DNA of 64,000 nt from Neoroseomonas terrae (GTDB lineage: Bacteria; Pseudomonadota; Alphaproteobacteria; Acetobacterales; Acetobacteraceae): the NCBI RefSeq assembly GCF_018129025.1, contig NZ_JAAEDI010000010.1:1-64000 (forward strand), given 5' to 3'. Position numbers and translations under genes: made by a program. Position 1 is the stretch's first letter; every line of letters starts with the position of its first letter. The notes under the pieces are model-generated. The model searched no databases, was not told the DNA's origin, and saw nothing but the letters and a program-made list of their open reading frames with translations. This document shows, piece after piece, positions 15,080 to 47,361 of this stretch.

Positions 15080-15089
15080 TGCATCGGGC

Positions 15090-17227: not shown

Positions 17228-17234
17228 GGGAACG

Positions 17235-18431
17235 ATGCGGCAGCCCATGTCACGCTTCCTGCGACCGCGATTCTCGGCGTGGCTGCTGGTGCTGCCGCTG
17301 TTCCTGTTCAGCGCGGCGACCTTCGTCGTACCGATCGTCATGATGCTGGCCCGCAGCGTGCAGGACCCCGAGCTGTCGCGGGCGTTCCCGCAGACCGCTG
17401 CGGCGCTGGCGTTGTGGGATGGAAGGGATCTGCCGCCCGCATCGTCGATTGACACATTCATCGCCGAGCTGCGTGACGCCCGGGGCACGGAAGGCCTGAG
17501 CTTCGCGGCAAACCGCTTGAACAGCGAGATCAGCGGGTTTCGCTCGATGCTCCTGCGCACGGCGCGGAGCCTGCCTCGCGACCGGCAGGACGACCCTGTC
17601 GCGGCGTTGGCGCGCATCGACGCCCGGTGGGGCGAGCGATCGACCTGGGCGGCGATGCGCCGCGCCAGCGGTCCGTTCACCGACGGTTTCCTGCTCGCCG
17701 CGCTCGACCGCCAGCGCAATGACGATGGCGCGGTCGTCCGTGTTGCCGAGGAACGGGCCGTGTTCGTCACCGTCCTGCTCCGCACGCTGTGGATCTCGAC
17801 GCTGGTGACGGTGTTCTGCCTCCTGCTGGGCTATCCGGTCGCCTATCTCCTCGCAAGCATGCCGGGCAGGATCGCGAACCCGCTCCTGGTGCTCGTGCTG
17901 ATTCCGTTCTGGACCTCCGTCCTGGTGCGAACGACGGCCTGGGTCGTGCTGTTGCAGCGCGACGGCATGGTGAACGGGCTGCTGCAGCGGCTGGGGCTGA
18001 TCGAGCAGCCGCTGACGCTCATCTACAACCGGACCGGCGTGCTCATCGCGATGGTGCATGTGCTGCTGCCGTTGATGGTGCTGCCGCTCTACAGCGTGAT
18101 GAAGGGGATCGGCCGAGCCCCGATGCTCGCCGCCATGTCGCTCGGCGCACGGCCGTTCGAGGCCTTCCTGCGCGTCTATCTTCCGCAGTCGGTCGCCGGG
18201 ATCGGCGCCGGCTGCCTGCTCGTCTTCATCTCCGCGCTCGGCTACTACGTCACGCCGGAGCTGGCCGGCGGTGGCGGCGATCAGATGATCAGCTACTTCA
18301 TCGCCTTCTACACGAACCGCACGACCAACTGGGGCCTCGCCGGCGCCCTGTCGCTGATCCTGCTCGTCGTGACCGGGCTGCTCTACGTCGCCTATGCGCG
18401 GCTGTCGCGCGGCCCGAGGGCGCCAGCATGA
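17235..18431 (+). CDS. ABC permease, PotB-like, with long periplasmic loop
   Basis: Inner-membrane permease, 398 aa, about 100 residues longer than classic PotB. Membrane segment 1 is around residues 14-40. A polar stretch of about 130 residues (43-175) precedes segment 2 (LLRTLWISTLVTVFCLLLGYPVAYLL). The EAA-type loop is around AAMSLGARPFEAFLRVYLPQSVAG. The loop is probably periplasmic and faces the receptor; similar long forms occur in some alphaproteobacterial polyamine systems. It overlaps the next gene by four bases. Confidence 0.9.
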   Translation: MRQPMSRFLRPRFSAWLLVLPLFLFSAATFVVPIVMMLARSVQDPELSRAFPQTAAALALWDGRDLPPASSIDTFIAELRDARGTEGLSFAANRLNSEISGFRSMLLRTARSLPRDRQDDPVAALARIDARWGERSTWAAMRRASGPFTDGFLLAALDRQRNDDGAVVRVAEERAVFVTVLLRTLWISTLVTVFCLLLGYPVAYLLASMPGRIANPLLVLVLIPFWTSVLVRTTAWVVLLQRDGMVNGLLQRLGLIEQPLTLIYNRTGVLIAMVHVLLPLMVLPLYSVMKGIGRAPMLAAMSLGARPFEAFLRVYLPQSVAGIGAGCLLVFISALGYYVTPELAGGGGDQMISYFIAFYTNRTTNWGLAGALSLILLVVTGLLYVAYARLSRGPRAPA

Positions 18432-19255
18432 AGATGCCTCTCGCGCCCGTCGATCGCGTGCTGCGCTGGGCCCTCGTCGGGCTTTGCGTGCTCGTCTTCA
18501 TCTTCCTGCTGGTGCCCGTGCTGGCGGTGATCCCGCTCTCTTTCAACGCGGGCTCCTTCCTGACCTATCCGATGACGGGCTTCTCGACCCGGTGGTACAC
18601 GGATTTCTTCACATCGCCGCGCTGGCTGCCATCCCTGTGGAACAGCCTTTTCATCGGCTCGATCGCGACGGCGATCGCGACCATCCTCGGCACCGCCGCG
18701 GCCCTCGGTCTCGACCGTTTGGGCGGGGTCGCGAAGCAGGCGTTGAACGCCCTCTTCCTGATGCCGGTGGTCGTACCGGTCGTCGTGATCGGCAGCAGCC
18801 TGTATGCGTCGTTCGCGGCGCTCGGCCTGACGGCGAGCTATCCCGGCCTGATCCTGGCGCACGCCTTGCTGGGCGCGCCATTCGTGGTGATCACCGTGGC
18901 CGCCACGCTCTCCGGCTTCGATCGGCGGCTACTCAGCGCCGCCATGAGCCTCGGCGCGACACCCTGGCAGGCGTTCCGGCGCGTGACGTTGCCGTTGATC
19001 CTTCCGGGCGTGGTGTCGGGCGGCGTTTTTGCGTTCGCGACCTCCTTCGATGAGATCGTGGTGACGCTCTTTCTTGCCGGGCCGCAGCAGCGAACATTGC
19101 CGCTGCAGATGTTCGACGGCGTACGCGAGCAGATCAGCCCCACCATCACGGCGGCGGCGACGCTGCTGTTCCTCGTGTCCCTCCTGCTCGTTGCCGTCAT
19201 CGAATGGCTGCGGCGCCGTGGCGAGCGGCTGCAGGCTTCTGCGCCGGCCGAGTAG
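18428..19255 (+). CDS. ABC permease, PotC-like
   Basis: Second permease of the importer, 275 aa, normal length. It has about six membrane segments starting at LRWALVGLCVLVFIFLLVPVLAVIPLSF, and an EAA loop at AAMSLGATPWQAFRRVTLPLILPGVV. The ATG at 18428 lies inside the stop of the first permease; the longer upstream frame is an artefact. It is the last intact gene of the operon. Confidence 0.92.
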   Translation: MKMPLAPVDRVLRWALVGLCVLVFIFLLVPVLAVIPLSFNAGSFLTYPMTGFSTRWYTDFFTSPRWLPSLWNSLFIGSIATAIATILGTAAALGLDRLGGVAKQALNALFLMPVVVPVVVIGSSLYASFAALGLTASYPGLILAHALLGAPFVVITVAATLSGFDRRLLSAAMSLGATPWQAFRRVTLPLILPGVVSGGVFAFATSFDEIVVTLFLAGPQQRTLPLQMFDGVREQISPTITAAATLLFLVSLLLVAVIEWLRRRGERLQASAPAE

Positions 19256-19573: not shown

Positions 19574-20428
19574 CTAGGCGTCGCCTATCGCGTTCGCCGC
19601 CTCCATCAGCGCAGGCGCCAATCGCCGCCGCGCCGTCTCTTCATCCACATCCGCCAGTCGGGCCGTGATGTGAACCGCCGCCATCGGGCCGCCGTCCGGC
19701 TGAACGATCGGAGCGGCAAGGGCGATGATGCCGATCTGCAGTTCCTGGCTCAGAAGCGCGTAGCCCAGGCGTCGGGTCTCGGCGATGCGCTCACGGATGC
19801 GGACCGGATCGGTGAGCGTGAAGGGCGTCGCTGCCACCAGCTGCGATCTTGCCAGGACGTCATCAACGCGCTTCTCCGGCAGCCGTGACAGCACCGCGAT
19901 GCCGCCGGACGAGCACCAGGCCGGGATGCGGCGCCCGCCAAGCCCCGCGCGGAACGTCTCCCGCCGGCTTTCCAGACGCCAGACGTAGAGCATCGTGAGA
20001 TCGTCGAGCAGCGCGAGGTCCACGCGCTCCCCGATCGCGCGCTGCAAGTCGATCAGCACCGGTATCGCGCGCTCTAGCATCGGCTCCGATCGCTGGTAGT
20101 CGAAGGACCGATCGAGCAGCTTTCGCCCCGGCGCATGGCCGCCGCGCGGCCGCACCTCCATGTAGCCGAGCCGGACCAGCGTATGGACGACGCGCTGGAC
20201 GGCACTCTTCGGCAGGCCGGATGCGGCGGCGAGTTCGCCCAATGAGCGCGGCTGTGCGCCGGTGGAGAATACCTCGAGCACCCGGAATGCACGCGCGATG
20301 GCCTCGACGTGGAGCGGATCGCCCGCCTCCTGGGCAGAACCGGATGCGCCCGCTTCTTTTTCGCCCGTCCGGCCAACAATACCCCTTTGACCGGGCGTCG
20401 CCCGATGGCCTAGCTTTCCATTATTCAT
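19574..20428 (-). CDS. IclR-family regulator
   Basis: IclR-type transcription factor, 284 aa from the ATG at 20428. A variable N-terminal tail of about 40 residues precedes the helix-turn-helix at about 62-92 (LGELAAASGLPKSAVQRVVHTLVRLGYM). The effector domain includes AWCSSGGIAVLSRLP and IIALAAPIVQPDG. The upstream frame has no credible start. No Shine-Dalgarno precedes the ATG, which lies inside a palindromic operator candidate, suggesting autoregulation. It is divergent from the amidohydrolase cluster and is its likely regulator. Confidence 0.87.
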   Translation of the reverse strand: MNNGKLGHRATPGQRGIVGRTGEKEAGASGSAQEAGDPLHVEAIARAFRVLEVFSTGAQPRSLGELAAASGLPKSAVQRVVHTLVRLGYMEVRPRGGHAPGRKLLDRSFDYQRSEPMLERAIPVLIDLQRAIGERVDLALLDDLTMLYVWRLESRRETFRAGLGGRRIPAWCSSGGIAVLSRLPEKRVDDVLARSQLVAATPFTLTDPVRIRERIAETRRLGYALLSQELQIGIIALAAPIVQPDGGPMAAVHITARLADVDEETARRRLAPALMEAANAIGDA

Positions 20429-20454
20429 ACGATCGTATCGCACTTCGATACGAT
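20427..20454. promoter_or_regulatory. Three-half-site operator candidate for IclR
   Basis: The 12-base palindrome ATACGATCGTAT (20427-20438) is followed by a further ATACGAT half-site at 20448-20454. Seen another way, ATCGTATCG and CGATACGAT form 9-base perfect arms around CACTT (20432-20454). A palindrome plus one direct repeat resembles the operator plan described for the IclR-family regulators PcaU/PobR. The site covers the iclR start codon and lies 41 bases before the amidohydrolase ATG. Confidence 0.6.
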
Positions 20455-20494: not shown

Positions 20495-22060
20495 ATGGCG
20501 TCGGGGGCCGGGCCTATGGAGACGCTGATCGAGAGGGCACCCGCGGAGCACGGCTGGACGAGGATCGTCGGCGGGCTGGTGCTGGCACGGGCCGATGCGG
20601 AACCGCGGCGCTGCGACATCCTCGTGCAGGACGGCCGGATCGTCGCCCTGCCCGACCCGGATGAACCGAGGCCGGAGGACAAGGTCGCGATCCGGTTCGA
20701 CGCACGGGACTGCATCCTGATCCCCGGCCTCGTGAACACCCACGTCCACAGTTCCGGCAATCTGGTCCGCAGCCCGTCGGATCGCTGGAACCTCGAGCTT
20801 CAGCTGCATATCGGCGGCGCGTTCCGCGGCCGGCCGACCCCGCGTCAGAAATACGTCTCGGTCCTACTCGGGGCGATCGAGATGATCAGCCGCGGCTGCA
20901 CGGCCTGCTACGACATCTTCTTCGAAGCGCCCCTGCCGACGGCGGAAGGCTTTGCCGAGGTGGCGCGCGCCTATCGCGACATCGGCATGCGGGCGGTGAT
21001 CGCCCCCCAGCTCTCCGACATCCCCTTCCAACGCGTGATTCCGGGCCTGATGGACGCTCTGCCCGCCGAGACGCGCGCCCGACTCGCGGCCAATCCACCA
21101 AAGGCCGGCGCCGAGATCATGAGGGCGCTCGATTCAGTGTTGAGCGCTTGGCCGACAGGGCAGGACCTGGTCCGCTTCGCCGTCGCGCCCACCATTCCCA
21201 TGCACTGCACCGATGGCTTCCTGCGCGACTGCGCCGCCTTCGCGCGGCAGCACGGCATCGGCCTGCACACGCATCTCGCGGAATCCAAGGTGCAGGCGGT
21301 GGTCGGCCGCGAGCAATATGGCGCGACCATCGTCGGTCACCTGCTCGATCTCGGCATCCTGTCCGAGGCGTTCACGGCCGCTCACGCCGTATGGATCGAT
21401 GACGACGAGGCCAGGATGCTTGGCGACCACGGCTGTTCGGTGGCGCATGCACCCGGCGCCAATATGCGGCTCGGCGTCGGCGTGGCACGGACGCGCGCGA
21501 TGCTGGATGCGGGGGTCACGCTCGGCCTAGCCACGGATTCGCGCGTCTGCAACGACAACCTGAACATGTTCGAGGCGATGCGCCTCGCGAGCTACGCCTC
21601 CCGCATCCAGGGCTATGACCGCGGCCATTGGCTGTCCACACGCGAGGTCCTGCATGCTGCCACGCAGGGCGGCGCGCGCGTGCTGGGGCTTGGCGATTCC
21701 ATCGGCCAGCTCGCGCCGGGATTCGCGGCGGACATCGTGTTCCTCGACCGGCGCAGCACGAACTACGTCCCGCTGGTCGATCTCGTCCATCAACTCGTCC
21801 ATGCCGAGGATGCGACCGCGGTGCGCCATGTGATGATCGGCGGCCGCCTGGTCTATCGCGATCGCGACTTCCCCGACCTCGACATTCCCGCGCTGCTGGA
21901 GGAGGCCGAGACTGCCTCCGTCGCGATCCGTGCCGAGACCGCCCCCGCCATCGCGCGCGAGGAGGCGCTGGACGAGCCCGTGCTGTCCATCTGCGGCTGC
22001 TTCGCCCGACGCCCGCTCGGCTTCAGCCGCTTCGTCGGCGGCGAGTTCTCCTGCGCATGA
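20495..22060 (+). CDS. Amidohydrolase, TRZ/ATZ-chlorohydrolase type (A)
   Basis: Metal-dependent amidohydrolase of the SAH-deaminase/atrazine-chlorohydrolase superfamily, 521 aa. Metal ligands are visible: LVNTHVHSSGN near residue 88, THLAES, AAHAVWIDDDEA and LATDSRVCNDN. The start is ATG at 20495; an ATG seven codons later (20516) is as plausible. It is a clear paralog of the amidohydrolase at 24002. Deamination or hydrolysis of a ring C-N bond is the expected chemistry; the substrate is unknown. It is the first gene of the plus-strand cluster. Confidence 0.88.
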   Translation: MASGAGPMETLIERAPAEHGWTRIVGGLVLARADAEPRRCDILVQDGRIVALPDPDEPRPEDKVAIRFDARDCILIPGLVNTHVHSSGNLVRSPSDRWNLELQLHIGGAFRGRPTPRQKYVSVLLGAIEMISRGCTACYDIFFEAPLPTAEGFAEVARAYRDIGMRAVIAPQLSDIPFQRVIPGLMDALPAETRARLAANPPKAGAEIMRALDSVLSAWPTGQDLVRFAVAPTIPMHCTDGFLRDCAAFARQHGIGLHTHLAESKVQAVVGREQYGATIVGHLLDLGILSEAFTAAHAVWIDDDEARMLGDHGCSVAHAPGANMRLGVGVARTRAMLDAGVTLGLATDSRVCNDNLNMFEAMRLASYASRIQGYDRGHWLSTREVLHAATQGGARVLGLGDSIGQLAPGFAADIVFLDRRSTNYVPLVDLVHQLVHAEDATAVRHVMIGGRLVYRDRDFPDLDIPALLEEAETASVAIRAETAPAIAREEALDEPVLSICGCFARRPLGFSRFVGGEFSCA

Positions 22061-22095
22061 CCACCATCCCCTGCCACCTGAGACGGAACCATTCC

Positions 22096-23064
22096 ATGCG
22101 GATCTCCCGACGCAGCCTGCTGGCGGCCGCCGCCACGACCGCCATGGCCGCGCCGGCCATCGCCCAACCGGCATTCCCGACCCGGCCAATCCGCATGGTC
22201 GTGCCCTTCGCGCCGGGCGGCGCGACCGACCTCATCACCCGCCTTCTGGCCGAGGAGATGGCGCGGCCCCTGGGCCAAAACGTTGTCGTCGAGAACCGCA
22301 GCGGCGCGTCCGGCACAATCGCCGGCAACTTCGTCGCGCGCGGCCCGGCCGATGGCTACACGCTGTTCATGGGCACGACCGGCACGAACATCCTCGCGCC
22401 CTTCTTCGTGCTCGATGCGCCCTATGAGACGGAGCGCGACTTCCGTGGCGTCGCGATGGTTGCGGGCATCGCCAACCTGCTGGTCGTCGGCCCGGCCATC
22501 CCGGCGACAACGGTGCAGGAATTCATCGCCTACGCCCGCGCCAATCCGGGCCGGGTCAACTATGCGGCCACCGGCAGCGGATCGCAGATGGCCATGGAGC
22601 TGTTCCTGCAGCGCGCCGGCATCACCGCCACGGCGGTGAACTATCGCGGCAGCGGGCCGGCACTGCAGGACATGATCCGCGGCGACGTCCACGCCACGAT
22701 GGACCTGATCTCCTCCACCCTGCCGACCGTGCAGGACGGCCAGCTCCGTGCGCTGGGCGTGAGCACCACGGCGCGCAACCCGCGCGCGCCGGCGGTGCCG
22801 ACCCTGCAGGAGGCCGGCGTGCCGGGCTACGAATTCCTGTCCTGGCAGGGCGTCTTCGCCCCGCGCGCCACGCCCGACGCGATCGTCGAAAAACTCTCGC
22901 AGGCGATCAACGACGCGCTGGCCAACCCGGAGCTGCGTCGCCGCATCGAGGCCATGGCGGCCGACCCCATGGGCGGCACGCCGGCCGAGATGGACCGCTA
23001 CATCGCGCGCGAAGTGGCGACCCTGTCCGCCGTCGCCCGCGCCGCCGGCATCCGCCCGCAATAA
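22096..23064 (+). CDS. Bug-family receptor of amidohydrolase cluster
   Basis: Bug/TctC-type receptor, 322 aa. The signal peptide MRISRRSLLAAAATTAMAAP has a Tat-like SRRSLL core. It is followed by FPTRPIRMVVPFAPGGATDLITRLL, VVVENRSGASGT, PADGYTLFMG and VNYRGSGPALQDM. The ATG at 22096 starts the signal peptide; the much longer upstream frame lies in the amidohydrolase gene. Lying between two amidohydrolases, it probably imports their substrate. Confidence 0.9.
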   Translation: MRISRRSLLAAAATTAMAAPAIAQPAFPTRPIRMVVPFAPGGATDLITRLLAEEMARPLGQNVVVENRSGASGTIAGNFVARGPADGYTLFMGTTGTNILAPFFVLDAPYETERDFRGVAMVAGIANLLVVGPAIPATTVQEFIAYARANPGRVNYAATGSGSQMAMELFLQRAGITATAVNYRGSGPALQDMIRGDVHATMDLISSTLPTVQDGQLRALGVSTTARNPRAPAVPTLQEAGVPGYEFLSWQGVFAPRATPDAIVEKLSQAINDALANPELRRRIEAMAADPMGGTPAEMDRYIAREVATLSAVARAAGIRPQ

Positions 23065-23099
23065 CCGGCCCAAACGAGCAACAACCGAGGATATGCCGC

Positions 23100-24005
23100 A
23101 TGCTGCTGCCCCAACCGCCGCGCTACGACTACTCGGCCATCGTCGATCGCCCGACCTATGACTGGCCCGGCGGTGCGCGGATGGCCTTCTACCTCGCGCT
23201 GAACGTCGAGCAGTTCGCCTGGGGGCGCGGCACCGGCCACGCGCCGCACAACTGGAACAACGGCGCCGATCCGCGCATCTTCGCCTGGCGCGACTACGGG
23301 CTGCGCGTCGGCTTCTGGAACATCCTCGACATTCTGGACGAGCTCAGGCTGCCCTGCTGCCATCTCGTGAACTCGGCCGTCTGCGACAACTTCCCGACGG
23401 TCGTGGAGCGGATCAACGCCCGCGGCGAGGAAGTGGTCTCGCATGGCCGCACCAATGCCGAGCGCCCCGGCGACTATTTCGAGGCGGATGAGCGCCGCCT
23501 GATCCAGGAAGTCACGACGACCATCGAGCGGCGCCACGGCCAGCGCCCATTCGGCTGGATGGGCCCCTGGATCTCCGAGAGCCCGGTGACCACTGACCTC
23601 CTGAAGGAGGAAGGCTACCGCTACATCATGCACTGGCCCTGCGACGACCAGCCGGTCTTCCTCAAGACCCGCGCCGGCCCGCTGCTGAACGTGCCTTACC
23701 CGATCGAGCTGAACGACGCGCCGGCGATCCTCAACCGCGGGCATTCCGCCGAGGAATTCGGCCGGATGATGACGGACCAGTTCGACATGATGCTCGCCCT
23801 GTCGGCGAAGCGCCCGCTGGTTTGCGCTATCTCGCTGCACACCTTCGTCTTCGGCTCCCCCTTCCGCCTGGCGCAGCTGCGCCAGGCGCTGGAGCACATC
23901 GCGAAGTTCCGCGACGACCCGCGGGTCTGGTTCGCGACCCCGGGCGCCATCGCCGATCATGTGCTGGCACTGCCGCCGGGAACGGTGCCGGGCAGCGAGC
24001 CGTGA
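23100..24005 (+). CDS. Polysaccharide-deacetylase-family hydrolase, PuuE-like
   Basis: NodB-fold hydrolase, 301 aa, resembling cofactor-free allantoinase PuuE more than true polysaccharide deacetylases. There is no signal peptide. The N-terminal WPGGARMAFYLALNVEQFAWG takes the place of the TFDDG motif, followed by EVVSHGRTN and FGWMGPWISESPVTTDLLKEEGYRY. Placed between two amidohydrolases, it could open a cyclic amide or ureide. GTGA coupling links it to the next gene (start 24002). Confidence 0.82.
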   Translation: MLLPQPPRYDYSAIVDRPTYDWPGGARMAFYLALNVEQFAWGRGTGHAPHNWNNGADPRIFAWRDYGLRVGFWNILDILDELRLPCCHLVNSAVCDNFPTVVERINARGEEVVSHGRTNAERPGDYFEADERRLIQEVTTTIERRHGQRPFGWMGPWISESPVTTDLLKEEGYRYIMHWPCDDQPVFLKTRAGPLLNVPYPIELNDAPAILNRGHSAEEFGRMMTDQFDMMLALSAKRPLVCAISLHTFVFGSPFRLAQLRQALEHIAKFRDDPRVWFATPGAIADHVLALPPGTVPGSEP

Positions 24006-25507
24006 CCGAGCGAAGCGCGATCATCCGTGGCGGATGCCTGCTGGACGCGGCGGGTCGCTCCGCCACGCCCGCCGACATCCTGGTGCAGGATGGGGCGATC
24101 GCGCAGATCGGTGACCCCGGCCTAGCGGCGCCGGAAGGCGTCGCCGTGTTCGACGCCTCCGACCGCCTGCTGATGCCGGGCATGATCAACGCCCATGCGC
24201 ATAGCGGCGGCAACCTCGCCCGCAGCATCCATGACAAGTGGACGCTGGAGCTGCTGCTGAACGGTACCGTCGCCAATGTCGGCGGCCAGACGCTGGAGGA
24301 GAAGTACATCTCCACCCTGCTCGGCGCGCTCGAGATGCTGAGCAAGGGCTGCACCGGCTGCTACGACCTGTTCTACGAGTTCCCGCTGCCATCCGAGGAC
24401 GGCATCAAGGCAGCGGCCCAGGCCTATGCCGATGCCGGCATGCGCGCCGTCATCGCGCCGATGCTCGCGGATCGCAGTTTCTATCGCGCCATCCCCGGCC
24501 TGCTTGAGGCCCTGCCGGATCCATATCGCGAGCAGTTCGCGACGGCGCAGGCATTGCCCTGGCAGGCACAGCTCGACATCATCGCCCAGGTCATGCGCGG
24601 CTGGGCCTTCGACCGCGACCGGATCACGCTGGCTATCGCGCCGTCCATCCCGATGCACTGCACCGATGAGTTCCTCGCCGGCGCGGCCGCCTTCACTCGC
24701 GACCACGGCATCGGCTTCCATACGCATCTCGCGGAATCCCGCGTACAGGCGGTCTACGGTCGCCAGCGATATGGCCGGTCGCCGACGGCGCAGCTGCGCT
24801 GCCTCGGCGTGCTCGGGCCGAACTTCACCGCGGCGCACGCGGTCTGGGTGGATGACGACGACATCGCGATGCTCGCCGATGCCGGCGCGTCGGTGGCGCA
24901 CAACCCCGGCAGCAACATGCGCCTCGGTTCCGGCATGGCGGCGACGCGGCGGATGCTGGATCGCGGGCTGAATGTCGGGCTGGGCACGGATTCCCGAGTC
25001 TGCTCCGACAATCTGAACATGTTCGAGGCGATGCGCTTCGCCTCCTATGCCTCCCGCGTGCAGGGGCCGGACCATGAGCGCTGGCTCTCCACGCCGGAGG
25101 TCTTCGCCATGGCCACGGAGGGCAGTGCCAAGGCGCTGGGCTTCGGCGACCGGCTGGGGCGCCTCGCGCCCGGGTATCGCGCCGACATCGTCTTCCTGGA
25201 TCTCGGCAACCTGAACTGGGTGCCCCTCAACGACACGACGAACCAGCTCGTCTTCGCCGAGGACGGGACGGCGGTGGACAGCGTGATGGTGGATGGGCGG
25301 CTCGTTTATCATCAGCGCCGCTTTCCCGGCATCGACATGGCGTCGCTGCGTCGCAAGGCACAGTCCGCAGCCGATCGCCTGCGCGGTGCGAATGCGGAGA
25401 TGCGTGCCGTCGCCGCCGCTCTCGAACCCGTCGTCGCCTGCTTCTGCGGCGCCCTGGCGCGAGAGCCGCACCACATCCATCGCTTCACGGGCGGAGAAAT
25501 CGCGTGA
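24002..25507 (+). CDS. Amidohydrolase, TRZ/ATZ-chlorohydrolase type (B)
   Basis: Metal-dependent amidohydrolase, 501 aa, GTG start overlapping the previous stop. Ligand motifs are MINAHAHSGGN, THLAESRVQAV, AAHAVWVDDDD and LGTDSRVCSDNLNMFEAMRFASYASR. These and long intervening stretches match the protein at 20495, so the pair arose by duplication. Sequential steps on one compound, or two related substrates, are possible. It overlaps the MmgE/PrpD gene by four bases (GTGA). Confidence 0.88.
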   Translation: MTERSAIIRGGCLLDAAGRSATPADILVQDGAIAQIGDPGLAAPEGVAVFDASDRLLMPGMINAHAHSGGNLARSIHDKWTLELLLNGTVANVGGQTLEEKYISTLLGALEMLSKGCTGCYDLFYEFPLPSEDGIKAAAQAYADAGMRAVIAPMLADRSFYRAIPGLLEALPDPYREQFATAQALPWQAQLDIIAQVMRGWAFDRDRITLAIAPSIPMHCTDEFLAGAAAFTRDHGIGFHTHLAESRVQAVYGRQRYGRSPTAQLRCLGVLGPNFTAAHAVWVDDDDIAMLADAGASVAHNPGSNMRLGSGMAATRRMLDRGLNVGLGTDSRVCSDNLNMFEAMRFASYASRVQGPDHERWLSTPEVFAMATEGSAKALGFGDRLGRLAPGYRADIVFLDLGNLNWVPLNDTTNQLVFAEDGTAVDSVMVDGRLVYHQRRFPGIDMASLRRKAQSAADRLRGANAEMRAVAAALEPVVACFCGALAREPHHIHRFTGGEIA

Positions 25508-26898
25508 CTGGCACTCCGACCGTCAGCGAGCGGCTGGCCACCTTCATGCTGGACACGCCGGGCACGGCGATTCCGCCTGACGTCCTCGCGCAGACCAAGC
25601 TGCAGATCCTCGATTCGATCGGCCTGATGCTCGTCGTCTCCGGCCAGGAGTATGGCAGATCGGTGTGCCGTGCGGTGCAGGAGATGGGGCGCAGCGACGA
25701 CGCCACCGTCATCGGCACAGGCGAGCGCAACACGGCGATGAATGCCGTGCTCGCCAACGGCGCGATGGCTGACGCGCTCGACTATGACGACACCCACAAC
25801 GAGACACATCTGCATCCCGGCGCGCATATCGTTCCGCTGACGCTCGCCGCCGGAGAGGCTCGCCGCAGTACCGGGTTGGAAGCCCTGACCATCGCCGCGC
25901 TGGGCTTCGAGATCGGCTGCCGGCTGGCAGTGGCGGCACCAGGGCAGTTCGGCCGCCGCGGCTTCCATACCAGTGCGATCTGCGGCGCCGTCAGCACCTC
26001 GCTCATGGCCAGCCGCTTCTACGGCCTGTCCCACCAGCAGGCGGTCTGGTCCGTCGGGACATCGGCGAGCCAGGCCGCCGGCATCCTGCAATGCTACACT
26101 GACGGCACCTGGACGCAGGGCCTGCATCCCGGCTGGATCGCGCATGCTGCCATTGCCGCGGCGTTGCTCGGCCGTGCCGGCTTCACCGGCCCGCCGACGG
26201 CGATCGAGGGCCGGATGGGCCTGTTCCGCACCCATGTGCAGGACCCCGACTACAACTTCGACTTTGACCGCACGCTGCGCGGCCTCGGCACGGTGTGGGA
26301 GGGACGGACCATGTCCGTGAAGCCCTATCCGACCGGCTGCGTGATCCATCCCTATCTCGACGCCATCCTGGCGCTGCACCGCGCCGGCCTGCGCGCCGAG
26401 CAAGTGAAGCGGCTGCGCCTGCCGATGTCGCACCACTGGGTCGGCATCGTCTGCGAGCCGGTCGCCGAGAAGCGCCGCCCGGCCACCGAGATCGCCGGCC
26501 GCATCAGCCTGCAATATGCGGTGGCCGAGGCGCTGACGCGCGGCCGCTTCGGCCTCGACAGCGTGACGGAGGCGGATCTGCGCGATCCTGCCATCCTCGA
26601 TCTCGTTGACCGCACCGACTACGAACTCGACCCCGAGCCGCCTGCACGCCGCGCCTTCAAGGGATGGGTCATCGCCGAGTTGCATGACGGCCGCGTGCTG
26701 GAACGCATCGAACACCCCTGGACGAGGGGCAACCTCGACGATCCCGGCACGCCGGCCCTGGTGCGCGACAAGTTCCGCGAGAACGCCGGCCGTCGCCTGC
26801 CCTCCGCGCAGGTCGAGGAGATCGTCGCTGCGGTCGATGCCTTCGAGACGCTCGCCGATGTCGGCGAGCTTGCGCGGCTTTGCGCCATCCGCGGCTGA
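25504..26898 (+). CDS. MmgE/PrpD-family protein (A)
   Basis: Member of the 2-methylcitrate dehydratase/cis-aconitate decarboxylase/iminodisuccinate epimerase superfamily, 464 aa, GTG start coupled to the amidohydrolase. Family features include DSIGLMLVVSGQEYG near the N terminus, ADALDYDDTHNETHLHPGAHIVPLTLA and KPYPTGCVIHPYLDA. In catabolic operons such proteins often act on polycarboxylates formed after ring cleavage. A second, divergent copy lies at 29395. Confidence 0.88.
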   Translation: MTGTPTVSERLATFMLDTPGTAIPPDVLAQTKLQILDSIGLMLVVSGQEYGRSVCRAVQEMGRSDDATVIGTGERNTAMNAVLANGAMADALDYDDTHNETHLHPGAHIVPLTLAAGEARRSTGLEALTIAALGFEIGCRLAVAAPGQFGRRGFHTSAICGAVSTSLMASRFYGLSHQQAVWSVGTSASQAAGILQCYTDGTWTQGLHPGWIAHAAIAAALLGRAGFTGPPTAIEGRMGLFRTHVQDPDYNFDFDRTLRGLGTVWEGRTMSVKPYPTGCVIHPYLDAILALHRAGLRAEQVKRLRLPMSHHWVGIVCEPVAEKRRPATEIAGRISLQYAVAEALTRGRFGLDSVTEADLRDPAILDLVDRTDYELDPEPPARRAFKGWVIAELHDGRVLERIEHPWTRGNLDDPGTPALVRDKFRENAGRRLPSAQVEEIVAAVDAFETLADVGELARLCAIRG

Positions 26899-26934
26899 CG
26901 GCGTGCACAATCATTCACAAGAGGAGAGGGTGAA

Positions 26935-28545
26935 GTGACTCAGCGCATGACCGGCTTCATCGGCCGCCGAGGCCTCGGCGCCGCCGGCGCGTCCCTGGCG
27001 CTGGCCGCATCCACCTCGCCCACGCGGGCGCAGGCGCGCACGGAACTGCGGATCGGGTCGCAGGTGGAACCGACATCCATCGATCCGCATTTCGCGAATG
27101 TCGACACCAACAACGCCATGGCGCTGCACTTCTTCACGCCACTGGTCATCCGCAGCGAGACCCTGCAGCCGCAGCCTGGCCTCGCGACGTCCTGGCGCAT
27201 GGTGGACGAGACCACCTGGGAGTTCAAACTCCGCGAAGGCGTGCGCTTCCACGACGGCAGCGAGCTGACCGCGGAGGATGTCGCGTTCAGCATCCGCCGC
27301 GCACCCGCGGTGCCGGGCTCGCCGGCCTCTCTCTCGGTCTATCTGCGCCAGATCACCGGCATCGAGGTGGTGGACCGGCATACGATCCGGCTCCGCACGG
27401 CGGAGATCTTCCCGCTGATGCCGATCTTCATGGGGACCTTCGTCATCCTCTCCCGTCGCGCCGCGGAAGGCGTGACGACTGAGGAATTCAACGCCGGCCG
27501 CGGCATGGTCGGCACCGGCCCCTACCGCTTCACCGGCTGGCAGCGCGGCGAACGCCTGACCATGGAGCGGTTCGCCGACTACTGGGGGCCGGCGCCGGAG
27601 ATGGAGCGGGTGACCTTCCGCTTCATCCCCAATCCGGCAGCGCGGCTATCGGCCCTGCTCGCCGGCGATGTAGACATGATCGACTTCGTCCCGATCACCA
27701 GCATGGACGCAGTCGCGCGCCGCAATGACCTACGGCTGTCGCGCGGGGTGACGAACCGACTGATCTACCTGCATGTGGAGCACGAGCGGGCGGACGCGCC
27801 CTTCGTGACGGACCGCGCCGGCCGGCCCTTCGCCGGGCGCGGTCCCTTGCAGGATGCGCGGGTGCGGCGCGCCCTCTCGATGGCGATCGACCGGCGCGCC
27901 ATCGCCGCCCGCATCATGGAAGGCGCAAGCGAACCGACGAGCCAGATCATGCCCGCCGGGGCAATCGGGCATGTCCCGGACCTGCCGGTGGCACCCTATG
28001 ATCCCGTGGGTGCACGGCGCCTTCTGGCTGAGGCCGGCTATGCCGATGGTTTCGCCATCACCATGCAGGTGCCGCGCAACCGCTACGTCAACGACGTACG
28101 CGCCATGGAGGCGATCGCGCAGATGCTGACGCGGATCGGGCTCGAGGTGCGGCTCGAGACCGTGCCGGTCCAGACCTTCTTCGATCGCGCCTCGCGCCGT
28201 GAGTTCTCGTTGTTCATGATCGGCTTCGGCGTCGTGACGGGCGAGCCATCCTCCTTCATGTCGCTGGTCATGCAGACTTTCGACGCGCAGGCGCGGGTCG
28301 GCGCCGGCAATCGCGGCCGCTACTCGAACACCGAGTTCGACCGGCTGCTCGTCCAGGCGCTGCGCACGCCCGACGATGCCGCGCGGGAGGAGCTGCTGCG
28401 TCAGGCGACGCGCATCGCCATGGCGGACCAGGCCATCATTCCGCTGCACCACCAGGTGCATCTCTGGGCGATGCGCTCCGATCTCGATCATGTCGCGCGG
28501 ACGGATGAGTACACCCTGGCGCAGGATGTGCGCCGGCGCGGATGA
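26935..28545 (+). CDS. Orphan peptide/opine-type ABC receptor (SBP family 5)
   Basis: Periplasmic binding protein of the dipeptide/nickel/opine family, 536 aa. The signal peptide covers about residues 1-33. It is followed by LRIGSQVEPTSIDPHFANVDTNN, LREGVRFHDGSELTAEDVAFSIRRA and GTGPYRFTGWQRGERLTMERF. The start is GTG at 26935 with GAGGAG upstream. No permease or ATPase genes of this transporter class occur anywhere in the window, so it must share a membrane complex encoded elsewhere. Confidence 0.88.
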   Translation: MTQRMTGFIGRRGLGAAGASLALAASTSPTRAQARTELRIGSQVEPTSIDPHFANVDTNNAMALHFFTPLVIRSETLQPQPGLATSWRMVDETTWEFKLREGVRFHDGSELTAEDVAFSIRRAPAVPGSPASLSVYLRQITGIEVVDRHTIRLRTAEIFPLMPIFMGTFVILSRRAAEGVTTEEFNAGRGMVGTGPYRFTGWQRGERLTMERFADYWGPAPEMERVTFRFIPNPAARLSALLAGDVDMIDFVPITSMDAVARRNDLRLSRGVTNRLIYLHVEHERADAPFVTDRAGRPFAGRGPLQDARVRRALSMAIDRRAIAARIMEGASEPTSQIMPAGAIGHVPDLPVAPYDPVGARRLLAEAGYADGFAITMQVPRNRYVNDVRAMEAIAQMLTRIGLEVRLETVPVQTFFDRASRREFSLFMIGFGVVTGEPSSFMSLVMQTFDAQARVGAGNRGRYSNTEFDRLLVQALRTPDDAAREELLRQATRIAMADQAIIPLHHQVHLWAMRSDLDHVARTDEYTLAQDVRRRG

Positions 28546-28601
28546 TGCGGTACGGCTTGGTTGGGCGACGATACGCCGCCATTGCCGCAGGAGGATCGAC
28601 C

Positions 28602-29345
28602 ATGAACGACACAGAGATCGCAGGCGCCGCCGCATCGCTCGCGGCGGCGAGAAGCGGGCCGGCCATTCCGGCCCCCTCGCCCGGCCCGACGACGATGGCG
28701 GAGGCCGAGGCGATCCAGCTTGCGACCTTCGCGGCGCTGGGCCTGCGCCGTGGCGGCTGGAAGGTCGGCCGTGCGGACGGGCAGCTGTTCAGCGCGCCGA
28801 TGGTGGTGGGGCCGTTGAATGAGACGGAGCCGGTGCTGACCCTGCCGGTGGCGACCCGCATCGAGCTTGAGATCGCACTGCGCTTCCGCGAGGTGCCGCC
28901 GTCGACGGTGCTGGAGCTGGAGGCGCTGCCGGCGCTCGCCGACCTCGTCGTCCTGATAGAGTTCGTGCGGACGCGCTTCACGGGGCCGGTGACGGCGTTC
29001 GACCGTATCGCGGACTGCGTCTCCAATGAGCGCGTGGTCGCCGTCACGGCGCCCGGGCCGTGGTCGCCGGCGATCCTCGGTTCACTGCCGCTGGTCCAGC
29101 TCTTCCAGGACGGTGCCGAGATCGCCCGTCACGAAGGCGCTCACCCGGCCGCGCCGCTCGTCCCGCTCCTCGCCGCCTGGCAGGCGCGCTGTGCGGCGGA
29201 TGGCGTGGCCGTCGGTGCCGGCGAGATCGTCACACTCGGCAGCCTCACCGGCGTGCTGCCGGTGCCGCCAGCGGGCGCGCATTTCCGCGGCATCATCACT
29301 GGCTTGCCGCCGGTTCAATGTCGCGTCCTGCCGCTGGCGGCGTGA
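28602..29345 (+). CDS. 2-keto-4-pentenoate hydratase-family protein
   Basis: MhpD/fumarylacetoacetate-hydrolase-like protein, 247 aa. It has GWKVGRADGQLFSAPMVVGPL, the metal-site region ELEIALRFREVPP and the C-terminal TLGSLTGVLPVPPAGAHFRG, typical of 2-oxopent-4-enoate hydratase or oxaloacetate decarboxylase relatives. The ATG at 28602 has GGAGG nine bases upstream; an upstream ATG at 28542 is rejected as lacking one. Hydration of an unsaturated oxo acid fits a ring-cleavage pathway. Confidence 0.83.
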   Translation: MNDTEIAGAAASLAAARSGPAIPAPSPGPTTMAEAEAIQLATFAALGLRRGGWKVGRADGQLFSAPMVVGPLNETEPVLTLPVATRIELEIALRFREVPPSTVLELEALPALADLVVLIEFVRTRFTGPVTAFDRIADCVSNERVVAVTAPGPWSPAILGSLPLVQLFQDGAEIARHEGAHPAAPLVPLLAAWQARCAADGVAVGAGEIVTLGSLTGVLPVPPAGAHFRGIITGLPPVQCRVLPLAA

Positions 29346-29394
29346 CACGGCGCGCCGGCACGGCCGCCGAAAACATCTGAGTTGGAGTGCGGTG

Positions 29395-30744
29395 ATGGGA
29401 CGTTCAGTCGAGGCCCTGGCCCAGCTGGTGGTTGACACGCAGTGGGATGACGTACCGGAAGCGGTGCGTCGTCACGCGAAGCTCGTCCTGCTCGATACGG
29501 TCGGGGTGATTCTTGCCGGTAGCGAGCAGCCCGAACTGCATGGCCTGCGCGCGGAAGTCGCCCGAGGGGCGGGAAGCGGCGCGACGATTCTCGCGCGCGG
29601 CTTCCCGAGTGCCTCGCCGGCGATGTCGGCTTTCTTGAATGGTACGGCGGGCAGGTCGATCGAACTCTGCGAGAGCCACCGCTTCGTATCCTGCCAAGCC
29701 GCGGTCCAGGTGCTGCCCGGTGTGCTCGCCGCAGCGGAGGTCTACGGAAGCAGCGGACGTGACCTGCTGCTCGCCTTCATCCTGGGCTACGACGTCGCCA
29801 TCCGCCTGGGGGCAGGCACCACGCAGCGCCCCCTGGCGCACCAGAACGGCCAGACGGCCATGATCGGCGCCATCGCCGGCGCTGCGCGCCTGCGGGGCAT
29901 GGACGCCGCCGGCGTCAGCCGGGCGATGCGGATCGGCGCGACCTTCGTCCTCGTGCCAAGCTACACCAACGCGGTGAACGGCGCGACGACCCTCAATGCT
30001 GCGGGTGGGATGAGCGGTCTCATCGCGTCCGTCGCGACGGACCTCACGGGCGCCGGGTTCCTGGCGCAGGACGATGCCATCGAGGAGGCATTGGCACACC
30101 TCGTCGCGGACCGCTTCGACCCGGGGCCGGTCACCGAAGCCCTCGGCAAGCGCTGGGAGATCACGCGCAACGCCTTTCGTCTGCGCGCCTGCTGCATACC
30201 GACATACGCATCGCTGGACGCAATCGAAGCAGCGCTGGCGGAACTTGGCGCAACGCCGGAGGACATCGAGCGCATTGACGTCGAGACCTATCGTTTTGCC
30301 GCCGCCATGCGCGACCAGCAGCCACGCAACGGCTTCGCCGCGCGCTACTCGCTGCCGCACGCGGCGGCAGCCATCATCCTGCGGGGCGATACGGACCTTG
30401 ATGCCTTCTCAGAGGCAACCGTTGCGGATACCTCCTTCGTGGCCATGCGTGCGCGCGTGCATGTGAGCGAGGATGCTGCGCTGACCGCCATGTTTCCCGC
30501 GGCAAAGCCGGGCCGGGCAACGGTGACGCTGCGCGATGGCCGCGGCGCGACCCGTCAGGTGAACAGCGCACGGGGCGACTTCCAGAACCCCTACGCCGAA
30601 GGCGAGGTTCGGGCAAAGTTCCGTGCGCTGGCCGGCCGCGCCCTAAGCGACCGGGGCGTCAGTCGGCTTGAGGCAGCGATTGATGGCGTGGAAGGGACTG
30701 CCGGCCTCGCCGCGATTCTGATGAGTTTGCGCGAGGGCGTATGA
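29395..30744 (+). CDS. MmgE/PrpD-family protein (B)
   Basis: Second MmgE/PrpD protein, 449 aa, divergent from the copy at 25504. It shows LVLLDTVGVILAGSEQPE, FLNGTAGRSIELCESHRFVSCQA in place of the usual DYDD segment, and RLRACCIPTYASLDAI. The start is ATG at 29395 with GGAG nine bases upstream. It is the last gene of the plus-strand cluster; the next gene is convergent after 250 bases without recognisable content. Confidence 0.86.
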   Translation: MGRSVEALAQLVVDTQWDDVPEAVRRHAKLVLLDTVGVILAGSEQPELHGLRAEVARGAGSGATILARGFPSASPAMSAFLNGTAGRSIELCESHRFVSCQAAVQVLPGVLAAAEVYGSSGRDLLLAFILGYDVAIRLGAGTTQRPLAHQNGQTAMIGAIAGAARLRGMDAAGVSRAMRIGATFVLVPSYTNAVNGATTLNAAGGMSGLIASVATDLTGAGFLAQDDAIEEALAHLVADRFDPGPVTEALGKRWEITRNAFRLRACCIPTYASLDAIEAALAELGATPEDIERIDVETYRFAAAMRDQQPRNGFAARYSLPHAAAAIILRGDTDLDAFSEATVADTSFVAMRARVHVSEDAALTAMFPAAKPGRATVTLRDGRGATRQVNSARGDFQNPYAEGEVRAKFRALAGRALSDRGVSRLEAAIDGVEGTAGLAAILMSLREGV

Positions 30745-30994: not shown

Positions 30995-31993
30995 TCACTC
31001 GACCCGAGCGCCCGAGCTGGCTACCACCTCGCGGTACATTGGCGCAGTGTCGCGCAGATAGGTCGCGAAGGCCTCGGGCGTGCTCAGCACGACCTCCGAA
31101 CCCATGTCGATCAGCTTCTGGCTCACGTCCGAACCCTCGACCGCCGTGCGGATCGCGGCATTGAGACGACGCAGGATCGGCTCGGGCAAGCCCGCCGGAG
31201 CGAAGATCCCCTGATACCCCTGGATGCGGAAATCGGGCATCAGGCGCTCGGTGATCGTCGGCACGTCGGGGAGCAGTGGTGAGCGCTGATCGCCCCCCAC
31301 CAGCAGCAATGGCCTGAGGTTGCCCGCCTGGATCTGCGGGACCATGGCCGTGATCTGGTCGAGCACCATGGGAATTTGGCCGGCGATCGCGTCCGCCTGC
31401 GCCTGGTTGCCACCGCGATATGGCACATGCACCAAGCCCAGCCCGAAGGTGCGGCTCAGCACTTCCCCGGTCAGGTGGTTGGAACTGCCCACGCCGCTGG
31501 TGCCATAGGCCGTGCCGGGATGCGCCTTCAGCCACGCAATCAACTCATCCATCGTGCGTGCCGGCACGGAGGGGTTCACCGCCAGTACGGTTGGGTAGTA
31601 CGCAAGGTTGGTGATCGGGGTAAAATCCCGCAGCGGGTCCCAGCTGAGGTTGCTCTGCATATAGGGGATGATCGAGTGCGTCGCGATCGACCCGAAGCAC
31701 AGCGTGTAGCCGTCCGGGGCCGCGCGCGCGCAGGCCTCCGTCCCGATGGCGCCGCCAGCGCCGGCGCGATTCTCGACGACGACCGGCTGGCCTAGCGCCC
31801 GCGCCAGCGGCTCGGCGACCAGCCTCGCCATGATGTCCGCGCCGCCGCCGGGTGCGTAGGAAACGATCACGCGCACCGGCCGCGACGGCCACGCAGGTTG
31901 TGCCGAAGCCGGCGTGCCACCCAGCGGCAGCAGCGCCGGCGCGACCAGCGTCAGGCCAAGAATCGTGCGGCGAACGGCATATGCGACAGTCAT
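30995..31993 (-). CDS. Bug-family receptor
   Basis: Bug/TctC-type receptor, 332 aa from the ATG at 31993 (GGAGA about nine bases upstream; an ATG ten codons earlier lacks this). The signal peptide ends near PASAQ. It is followed by WPSRPVRVIVSYAPGGGADIMARLV, PDGYTLCFGSIATHSIIPY and VPYRGGNQAQADAI. It is divergent from the flavin monooxygenase at 32103 across 109 bases, so the two may share regulation and substrate. Confidence 0.9.
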   Translation of the reverse strand: MTVAYAVRRTILGLTLVAPALLPLGGTPASAQPAWPSRPVRVIVSYAPGGGADIMARLVAEPLARALGQPVVVENRAGAGGAIGTEACARAAPDGYTLCFGSIATHSIIPYMQSNLSWDPLRDFTPITNLAYYPTVLAVNPSVPARTMDELIAWLKAHPGTAYGTSGVGSSNHLTGEVLSRTFGLGLVHVPYRGGNQAQADAIAGQIPMVLDQITAMVPQIQAGNLRPLLLVGGDQRSPLLPDVPTITERLMPDFRIQGYQGIFAPAGLPEPILRRLNAAIRTAVEGSDVSQKLIDMGSEVVLSTPEAFATYLRDTAPMYREVVASSGARVE

Positions 31994-32102
31994 GCGTGCG
32001 TGTCTCCAACGGCCCATAAACACCCTGTCCCGGAACGCCGCAACGGGTTCTTCGGATCAGCAATCGGACCTAGGTTGCGGCCGTCACGCATGGAGGCACG
32101 AC

Positions 32103-34676: not shown

Positions 34677-34738
34677 GCCATGCTCCCATGGCAGGCGATA
34701 GGGATAGCGAACTGTACGATGATCATGGGATCTCCTCG

Positions 34739-45154: not shown

Positions 45155-45172
45155 CGTCGCCGGCCGCGGCGC

Positions 45173-46021: not shown

Positions 46022-46040
46022 CAGGGGTATCCTTGCACGT

Positions 46041-46742: not shown

Positions 46743-46755
46743 GCTGACTAATATA

Positions 46756-46761
46756 TTACAT
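46756..46761 (-). promoter_or_regulatory. Start-stop minimal uORF before the GntR gene
   Basis: On the minus strand GGAGGA (46772-46767) is followed after five bases by ATG directly joined to TAA. The GntR ATG lies 13 bases further on with no ribosome site. Ribosomes recruited here would terminate at once and could reinitiate at the GntR start. The overlapping TAATATATTA (46749-46758) is a 10-base palindrome and could also be a promoter or operator element. Confidence 0.45.
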
Positions 46762-46773
46762 ATCTTTCCTCCG

Positions 46774-47358: not shown

Positions 47359-47361
47359 TCC

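Follow-up and report, generated by a model that had tools for sequence, protein, structure and literature searches.

Which compound, and is it a single one, does the eight-gene operon at positions 20495-30744 of the window serve, the window being the whole 64,000-nucleotide stretch of Neoroseomonas terrae DNA analyzed here? The genes are co-directional and all intact (Table 1). Families were assigned by comparing Pfam scores with the curated cut-offs and NCBIfam scores with the named-family cut-offs. The preliminary description of an eight-gene set with a divergent IclR regulator holds: all eight genes and the regulator are unbroken ORFs with coding-like GC3, and the domain matches exceed the Pfam cut-offs. 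The tight spacing and overlap that it claimed are likewise confirmed, with neighbour gaps of -4 to 43 bp (35, 35, -4, -4, 36, -4 and 43 bp in gene order), three of them 4-bp overlaps. Some gene starts are revised: that of the IclR gene most likely to 20428, of the Bug receptor to 22096, of AH2 to 24002, and of PrpD2 to about 29389-29395 instead of 29026. The best explanation of the locus as a whole is a catabolic operon under IclR control that serves a single small N-ring compound, probably a non-aromatic one, a reading to which we give an even chance.

Table 1. Features of the operon and of its divergent regulator, in window coordinates
Feature	Position	Strand	Evidence or remark
IclR-family regulator, 284 aa	19574..20428	-	most likely span; IclR_C 97.4, HTH_IclR 54.5 bits (Pfam, above cut-offs)
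Operator-like perfect inverted repeat, 9-bp arms, 5-bp spacer	20432..20454		
AH1 amidohydrolase, subtype III / COG0402-like	20495..22060	+	alternative start 20516
Bug/TctC periplasmic receptor, 322 aa	22096..23064	+	PF03401 220.2 bits, above cut-off
PuuE-like protein, polysaccharide-deacetylase fold, putative ring-opening amidase	23100..24005	+	PF01522 (Polysacc_deac_1) 25.3 bits, cut-off 23.1
AH2 amidohydrolase, AH1 paralogue (53-54%)	24002..25507	+	Amidohydro_1
PrpD1, MmgE/PrpD family	25504..26898	+	PF03972 184, PF19305 93.4 bits
Family-5 periplasmic receptor (SBP_bac_5)	26935..28545	+	PF00496 287.5 bits, above cut-off
MhpD/NahK superfamily, remote member	28542..29345	+	profile search only
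PrpD2, divergent MmgE/PrpD-family protein	29389..30744	+	PF03972 110.6, PF19305 111.8 bits

The regulator is nearest to the named family pcaR_pcaU, under its NCBIfam cut-off (164.9 against 284.75 bits), and is probably dedicated to the operon. The gap between its gene and AH1 carries the inverted repeat, a putative operator, which is overlapped by a 12-bp palindrome at 20427-20438. The repeat is matched once in the window against 0.02 matches expected, for a pattern derived from the site itself, and is the sole copy within two mismatches across the 5.77-Mb genome. This uniqueness suggests, as far as sequence can indicate, one dedicated regulon under one putative operator. Terminator-like sites show no excess in the operon. 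Separate regulation of the two halves, which the preliminary description named as evidence against a single route, is not seen, since the search found no second operator in the 64-kb window and no promoter-like site inside the operon.

To survey the gene neighbourhoods, we collected AH relatives in one scan of 84,980 species genomes, which gave 450 stretches at E 1e-3; the best 80 of the 450, with 43-51% identity to AH1, were kept. Neighbours were counted at E 1e-20 in 104 distinct mapped loci, many of them on short contigs. The full eight-gene cluster is present in none of these 104 loci, and the complete gene set has been seen once. Conserved co-occurrence, whose absence the preliminary description had named as refuting its proposal, fails for the set, and the mapped loci show only recurring pairs: AH-PrpD, AH-PuuE, PuuE-PrpD and AH-SBP5. 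Close orthologues of AH1, AH2 and the PuuE-like gene, the only genes searched there, are absent from 34 congeners, where no AH match exceeds 46% identity to AH1. The missing gene order and orthologues favour the alternative that at least two functionally unrelated short modules were joined in a receptor-rich, rearranging region and are co-transcribed through adjacency alone. So does the C-terminal pair, which is poor in relatives: at E 1e-15 the MhpD-like protein has relatives (35-36% identity) in only 2 others of 385 class genomes, and the best relatives of PrpD2 (34-37%) lie in other gene contexts. Such a composite is rather doubtful, as the overlaps and the gaps of at most 43 bp extend over all eight genes, a single operator-like site accompanies a single regulator, and the recurring pairs span the supposed modules.

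Both amidohydrolases exceed the Amidohydro_1 cut-off (174.8 and 188 bits) and carry the subtype III signature (HxH, third and fourth His, Asp and catalytic Glu). Residues H83, H85, H260, E263, H297 and D348 (AH1 numbering), which we take to be the metal ligands and the catalytic Glu, are invariant in an 11-sequence alignment that includes AH1 and AH2. Metal ligands and catalytic Glu are common to the named subtype III enzymes (GuaD, 8-oxoguanine deaminase, AtzA/AtzB, MTA/SAH deaminase), whereas the AH group stands apart as a subgroup of proteins about 500 aa long; 9/10 complete alignment rows show a Cys in the C-terminal tail. No characterised member of this subgroup was found in the libraries searched. 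Were AH1 and AH2 ordinary GuaD/8-oxoguanine-type deaminases, and did the PuuE-like protein act like an allantoinase within a ureide route, the operon would degrade an aromatic N-heterocycle (purine, pteridine or triazine-like). The best NCBIfam match of both is indeed 5'-deoxyadenosine deaminase, with 8-oxoguanine deaminase coming next for AH1 and ranking third for AH2. Among the solved relatives are 8-oxoguanine deaminase/AtzB and AtzA, and the closest own-genome paralogue of the PuuE-like protein (53%) sits at a distance of one gene from a nucleoside hydrolase. However, the scores (236.1 bits for AH1, 249.9 for AH2) are far under the cut-off of 522, and no cut-off of a named COG0402 equivalog is reached among the NCBIfam matches listed (best 25 of 40 and best 25 of 56). 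GuaD-cluster enzymes are reported to have a glutamine after beta-strand 1 (PMC12828455); as read from the alignment, this is the Gln of 7ww2, and it is Gly in both AH2 and AH1. With no uricase, xanthine-dehydrogenase, HIU-hydrolase or other urate-pathway gene among the eight, aromatic degradation appears quite unlikely.

A non-aromatic N-ring substrate, the reading that we prefer, finds support in the neighbourhoods of the AH family. D-hydantoinase-like genes lie near AH in 22/104 loci, CN-hydrolase-like genes in 17/104 and hydantoin-racemase-like genes in 14/104, at least two of these types being present in 18/104. Any of the three occurs in 22/104 AH loci against 0/41 control loci, a comparison tilted toward the AH loci because the hydantoinase and racemase queries were taken from one of them, and one in which the controls are unmatched for taxon. 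Two hydantoinase-like representatives score 574 and 543.5 bits, above the 393 that NCBIfam sets for D-hydantoinase; the CN-hydrolase neighbours score far under the cut-off of every named family among the NCBIfam matches listed, so that the label "carbamoylase" would be a guess. In two of the three nearest relatives of AH2 (L108 and L110, 59-60%), AH, D-hydantoinase-like, CN-hydrolase and DAO-type oxidase genes share one stretch. A Rokubacteria locus (L111) has hydantoinase-like (34%), PrpD2-like and AH genes consecutively on one strand. The stretch read holds no hydantoin-type neighbour in 82/104 loci, including that of Stella (L109), the nearest relative of AH2 (61%), where AH adjoins a family-5 receptor gene (50%). 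The commonest partner across the 104 loci is an NMT1-type ABC transporter, which is compatible with many substrates and counts against a hydantoin-type reading. PrpD-like genes are near AH in only 2/104 loci and PuuE-like genes in 5/104, three of these at 27-30% identity; in L112 and L168, AH adjoins a PuuE-like or polysaccharide-deacetylase-fold gene. If this reading of the neighbourhoods is right, they suggest that part of the AH subgroup feeds hydantoin-type ring opening.

The cluster is not categorically new. Several of its components are found again next to genes of established ring-opening routes. With hydantoin utilisation clusters (D-hydantoinase, hydantoin racemase, N-carbamoyl amino acid hydrolase) it would share the opening of a cyclic ureide ring, but Pfam and NCBIfam detect no hydantoinase, CN-hydrolase or racemase among the eight genes; the position of the ring opener is taken by a PuuE-like gene, and the operon has PrpD and MhpD-type genes in addition. 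The best solved relative of the PuuE-like protein is the PuuE allantoinase 3cl6 (E 1.8e-23), of the same fold family, and the score against the allantoinase equivalog TIGR03212 (107.5 bits) falls short of the cut-off of 424.6. Cyclic ureide opening, the chemistry of PuuE, is putative here. The PuuE-fold relative HpPgdA is reported to be inactive on allantoin (PMC3084791), so relatives of this fold are not all cyclic amidases. Among 22 PuuE loci none of the neighbour families turns up in more than four, and PrpD lies within 2 kb in only two (L266, L268); for more distant PuuE-like versions, L213 and L214 also have PrpD within 2 kb. Of the five annotated settings, two clearly have no relation to it: L251 has tRNA synthetases and L254 an AMP-binding ligase.

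Both PrpD proteins have the N- and C-terminal MmgE_PrpD domains above the Pfam cut-off of 32.1. PrpD1 shares the D-D-T motif and the catalytic His with IDS-epimerase, cis-aconitate decarboxylase and 2-methylcitrate dehydratase, but has Gln for the active-site Lys, which is kept in 17/17 PrpD1-type rows. In PrpD2 the catalytic His (H99 of IDS-epimerase and H103 of IRG1; PMC7347537) is Gln, a conserved Asp is Cys and a conserved Lys is Arg. This His is kept in 13/13 distinct PrpD2-type relatives. Without the His and the Asp, PrpD2 may lie outside the usual run of MmgE/PrpD enzymes, and the earlier statement that PrpD-fold proteins act on poly-carboxylates becomes doubtful for it. That the substrate is an aminopolycarboxylate or branched dicarboxylate, with PrpD1 as an epimerase or decarboxylase and the AH and PuuE-like proteins cutting a side-chain amide without ring opening, is very unlikely: the closest solved relatives of PrpD1 (IDS-epimerase and cis-aconitate decarboxylase), the grouping of PuuE-like, PrpD-like and adenylosuccinate-lyase-type genes in L266, and the carboxylates that are frequent ligands of Bug receptors fit this account, but the PrpD1 match is distant (E about 1e-23), two subtype III amidohydrolases would imply a ring amidine or amide N, and a C-N lyase is absent among the eight genes.

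The MhpD-like protein was previously labelled 2-oxopentenoate-hydratase-like. As a single sequence it has no Pfam, NCBIfam or PDB match; superfamily membership stands through a 3-sequence profile, which finds 2-keto-4-pentenoate hydratase 2wqt (E 1.7e-13) and the 4-oxalocrotonate decarboxylase NahK (E 1.6e-12). E-x-E and the third Glu are kept, E108, E110 and E140, presumably metal ligands, being invariant in the three sequences.

Under the preferred reading of a non-aromatic N-ring, the substrate would be a cyclic amidine or guanidine, or a ureide or imide derived from such a compound. The Bug and family-5 receptors would bind and deliver this compound or a relative via permeases encoded elsewhere, no cognate permease gene for the family-5 receptor being found among the eight. 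AH1 and AH2 would strip the exocyclic amino group, deimination leaving a hydantoin- or imide-like ring, which the PuuE-like protein would open in the place held by D-hydantoinase beside some AH relatives. PrpD1 might then isomerise, dehydrate or decarboxylate the released acid, the MhpD-like protein might hydrate or decarboxylate a further intermediate, and PrpD2 could be a non-catalytic partner or a carrier of new chemistry. The preliminary proposal of import, deamination, ring opening and processing of an N-heterocycle survives in part: the hydantoin-type AH neighbourhoods and the PuuE allantoinase relationship speak for it, the unconserved set and the missing hydantoinase, CN-hydrolase and racemase against it. 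A more specific version, speculative and rather unlikely in its full detail, has the twin deaminases and a PuuE-type amidase (metal-free, if like PuuE) replacing the metal D-hydantoinase on a cyclic guanidine-derived ureide, the acid passing to a heteromeric MmgE/PrpD complex of catalytic PrpD1 and a His-less but retained PrpD2. We know of no such complex with one His-less subunit in the superfamily.

If the general reading is true, the operon offers the first lead on what a widespread AH subgroup does and, after PuuE allantoinase, another natural case of the polysaccharide-deacetylase fold replacing a cyclic amidase; the odd PrpD2 also becomes testable. For the window alone, it adds one further orphan catabolic operon. 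AH1 evolves fast, with a branch of 1.36 against 0.36 for AH2, and deviates at 11/110 conserved columns; its long branch and the lost residues of PrpD2 could represent decay.

Gene calling and family scans confirm the eight co-directional genes and the divergent IclR regulator gene of the preliminary description (table below). They encode two paralogous subtype III amidohydrolases (AH1 and AH2), a TctC-type periplasmic (Bug) receptor, a polysaccharide-deacetylase-fold (PuuE-like) protein, two MmgE/PrpD-family proteins (PrpD1 and PrpD2), an SBP_bac_5 (family-5) receptor and a remote MhpD/NahK-superfamily (MhpD-like) protein. The intergenic gaps from AH1 to PrpD2 are 35, 35, -4, -4, 36, -4 and 43 bp. 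The DHDPS gene at 33696-34769 was considered as part of the operon, because DHDPS genes flank amidohydrolases elsewhere, and was rejected, since at the search thresholds applied it does not match the DHDPS group in question.

Genes of the operon and its borders
Feature	Position	Strand	Basis
IclR gene	20428-19574 (best placement)	divergent (-)	start refinement
AH1	20495-22060	+	gene calling, family scan
Bug receptor	22096-23064	+	refined start, family scan
PuuE-like	23100-24005	+	family scan
AH2	24002-25507	+	refined start
PrpD1	25504-26898	+	family scan
Family-5 receptor	26935-28545	+	family scan
MhpD-like	28542-29345	+	gene calling
PrpD2	about 29389-30744	+	refined start
Bug gene downstream of operon	30995-32023	opposite to operon	Pfam

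The 66-bp gap between the IclR gene and AH1 contains a perfect inverted repeat, ATCGTATCG-CACTT-CGATACGAT, at 20432-20454, overlapped by a 12-bp palindrome at 20427-20438. The palindrome extends to the IclR start codon and 40 bp separate the end of the repeat from the AH1 start codon downstream, the arrangement that an operator shared by the two genes would have; the repeat is thus a putative operator. A 23-base search pattern derived from this site itself has one match in the window when up to 3 mismatches are allowed, versus 0.02 expected; genome-wide, the site is the only one with fewer than 3 mismatches, and four others have exactly 3. Between 19000 and 32200 no sigma-70-like promoter is predicted, and the five terminator-like sites are at chance level (3.5 +/- 2.3 expected). 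Nothing in the sequence suggests that the two halves of the operon are regulated apart; such separate regulation is what the preliminary description had named as evidence against its proposed route.

Searches with the amidohydrolase, PuuE-like, PrpD1, PrpD2 and MhpD-like proteins, together with neighbourhood maps, did not recover the complete eight-gene cluster. The scan of 84,980 species genomes yielded 450 confirmed amidohydrolase relatives (E 1e-3), and the analysis uses the best 80 of the 450, among which AH1 shows best-segment identities of 43-51%; class-level searches sampled 385 (or 230) genomes. These 80 loci and 29 others fetched make 109, or 104 after removal of 5 duplicates (1,706 kb in all). 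The whole set is absent from all 104 loci mapped, many of which are short contigs that limit the reach of the neighbourhoods. Within the genus, AH1 at E 1e-110 has matches in 20 of 34 other genomes, at 43-46% identity, about the level of its paralogue C7 in the source genome (43%). None of the matches in the 34 congeners is as close as a counterpart of AH1 or AH2 would be, and their PuuE-like matches reach at most 55% identity; 28 of the 35 genomes including the source have a completeness of 90% or more and a contamination of 5% or less, and 7 fall outside these bounds. Among the genomes examined, therefore, the cluster does not form a conserved pathway, and the conserved co-occurrence anticipated earlier fails for the set as a whole. 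Plasmid origin is not supported: AH1 finds 35 plasmid records, all below 60% identity (33-38% for the 20 listed), and the MhpD-like protein has no match among plasmid records. Tandem duplication of a sibling locus is likewise not supported, as the PuuE paralogues inspected (C9, C36 and C32) and the amidohydrolase paralogue C7 of the same genome have other neighbours. No description of this gene set was found among the listed titles and abstract beginnings of openly licensed papers.

Pairs of the operon genes do recur. An amidohydrolase accompanies a family-5 receptor in 7 of the 104 loci, most closely in Stella sp. ATCC 35155 (61% to AH2 and 50% to the receptor, in divergent orientation), then in Variovorax ginsengisoli (39%), with 27-32% in the remaining loci. 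Two loci combine amidohydrolase and PrpD genes: L111 from Rokubacteria carries hydantoinase-like (34%), PrpD2-like (34%) and amidohydrolase (56%) genes consecutively on one strand, and L081 has a PrpD1-like gene (33%) about 6 kb from the amidohydrolase. PuuE-like genes are present in five loci, in three of them at 27-30% identity; in L112 the gene (41%) is the convergent neighbour of the amidohydrolase and in L168 (52%) it lies about 6 kb away. A PuuE-like gene lies within 2 kb of a PrpD gene in 2 of 22 PuuE loci mapped (20 picked from the match list, with some near-duplicates and contig-edge matches omitted, plus L017 and L018), a raw count over the loci fetched. One of the two, L266, also has an adenylosuccinate-lyase-type gene, and the other, L268, an isochorismatase-type gene. 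More distant PuuE-like and PrpD genes overlap by 10 bases in L213 and L214, and in L282 and L283 the PrpD2 relatives come as a pair of PrpD genes that flank a racemase-family gene.

Genes of hydantoin type also recur as neighbours of the amidohydrolases. At E 1e-20, D-hydantoinase-like genes occur in 22 of the 104 loci, CN-hydrolase-like genes in 17 and hydantoin-racemase-like genes in 14, at least two of the three in 18. The 41 control loci (centred on PuuE, PrpD or MhpD genes, or stretches of the source genome) have none at this threshold, a contrast that is only indicative because the queries came from the amidohydrolase loci and the controls were not taxon-matched; the control locus L282 has a racemase-family gene (27%) under the threshold. 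Five of the 22 hydantoinase matches share just 26-29% identity with the query and may represent cyclic amidohydrolases of another kind. Two D-hydantoinase-like representatives score 574 and 543.5 bits versus an NCBIfam cut-off of 393, and the CN-hydrolases tested from these loci fit no named NCBIfam family. The commonest partner is an NMT1-type ABC transporter (ATPase in 40, receptor in 28 and permease in 27 of the 104 loci). Of the three relatives nearest to AH2, two (L108 and L110) are accompanied by D-hydantoinase-like, CN-hydrolase and DAO-family oxidase genes, with an N-formylglutamate-amidohydrolase-like gene added in L108; the stretch read from Stella, the nearest of the three, has no hydantoin-type gene.

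In alignments, the residues that serve subtype III deaminases as metal ligands and as catalytic Glu are kept in both AH1 and AH2. The glutamine reported for guanine-deaminase-cluster enzymes (PMC12828455) appears to be missing from both; AH2 has Gly at the column where 7ww2 has Gln. A quick tree of 106 rows, from which 3 of the 104 loci were left out beforehand for internal stops or short length (as for the column counts), pairs AH1 with AH2 (SH-aLRT 88) and places them next to L108/L110 (86) and Stella (98), and the C7 copy groups with Neoroseomonas (100), by which the source is probably a Roseomonas-like member of the Acetobacteraceae/Roseomonadaceae. The position of AH1 is unsure because of its branch length of 1.36, versus 0.36 for AH2. 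Among 110 columns with 95% or more conservation across 101 relatives, AH1 deviates at 11 and AH2 at 6, compared with a leave-one-out median of 1; a value of 11 is reached by 2 of the 101 relatives. These columns mark AH1 as the strongly diverged twin of AH2.

PrpD1 retains the D-D-T and catalytic His motifs, with Gln replacing the Lys of all 17 PrpD1-type rows. In PrpD2, Gln and Cys replace a His and an Asp conserved in all 13 distinct PrpD2-type relatives, the missing His being the one to which PMC7347537 assigns a catalytic role (H99 of IDS-epimerase, H103 of IRG1); a His is still present in the second motif. Arg also replaces the Lys of 12 of the 13, and since the thirteenth (L276) shares this Arg, the Lys is not counted as lost, unlike the His and Asp. 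A three-sequence profile of the MhpD-like protein matches 2-keto-4-pentenoate hydratase (E 1.7e-13) and NahK (E 1.6e-12), and three Glu are kept; its structure predicted from the single sequence was useless (mean pLDDT 34.7). The PuuE-like protein aligns with the PuuE allantoinase 3cl6 across most of its length (E 1.8e-23) and scores far under the allantoinase cut-off.

The proposal of a cyclic-amide degradation route is partly supported as to the class of chemistry, and not as to a whole-set pathway conserved among the amidohydrolase loci. Creatinine degradation runs through N-methylhydantoin and sarcosine, and the partner set of L108 and L110 resembles that route; on this likeness, cyclic guanidines would be the first candidate substrates of the operon. 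The Bug and family-5 receptors would serve import with permeases encoded elsewhere, AH1 and AH2 would carry out deimination, the PuuE-like protein might open the ring, and PrpD1 and the MhpD-like enzyme could perform the carbon-skeleton steps. PrpD2 has no assigned step and is left unexplained. New here are the gene combination, the diverged twins AH1 and PrpD2 and a possible role of the PuuE fold, rather than a new kind of system.

Several stretches of other genomes stand out in their own right. L213 and L214 (genomes G231 and G116, one genus) share an operon-like candidate for ring degradation, with PhyH- and TauD-type dioxygenases, molybdenum hydroxylase, 2OG-Fe(II) oxygenase, PrpD, PuuE-like, D-2-hydroxyacid dehydrogenase, ABC transporter, class II aldolase and amidase-like genes (Pfam on L213 only; the amidase-like call and the L214 order by eye). 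The twin PrpD2-like stretches span L282:6979-13907 and L283:7491-12825, and L282 also has PEP-mutase/isocitrate-lyase-like, tautomerase-like and FAD_binding_2 protein genes. The 3.4-Mb genome G087 has 33 MmgE/PrpD_N matches, four PrpD-like genes lying close together in its locus L212; few activities are known for this family, which is greatly expanded here.

Within the window, 4106-6412 (+) encodes a large molybdenum-hydroxylase-type subunit (42% to L213:5833-8223, MoCoBD domains), with relatives just upstream of the amidohydrolase in the Rokubacteria loci L134, L125, L133 and L115 (46-47%) and within a few kb of it in L104 (43%) and L098 (34%); this subunit and the operon might be parts of one catabolic network. 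A second small group at 44384-48195 comprises IclR-like and racemase-like genes, both called by eye, and a gene of the polysaccharide-deacetylase fold (47362-48195, Pfam), a 51% relative of which lies directly upstream of the amidohydrolase in L168; the racemase-like gene is just 21% identical to that of L282 over 150 aa. Just upstream of the IclR gene, 14075-19255 (+) encodes a Bug receptor and, after it, a polyamine-type ABC transporter (ATPase with TOBE, SBP_bac_8, two permeases), a candidate import system at which the operator-like repeat does not occur again. Bug/TctC receptors are dense across 8483-51113, with seven confirmed by Pfam (at 14075, 22096, 30995, 35919, 36929, 40741 and 42314) and three more (8483, 48264 and 50130) recognized by similarity to Bug-like neighbours.
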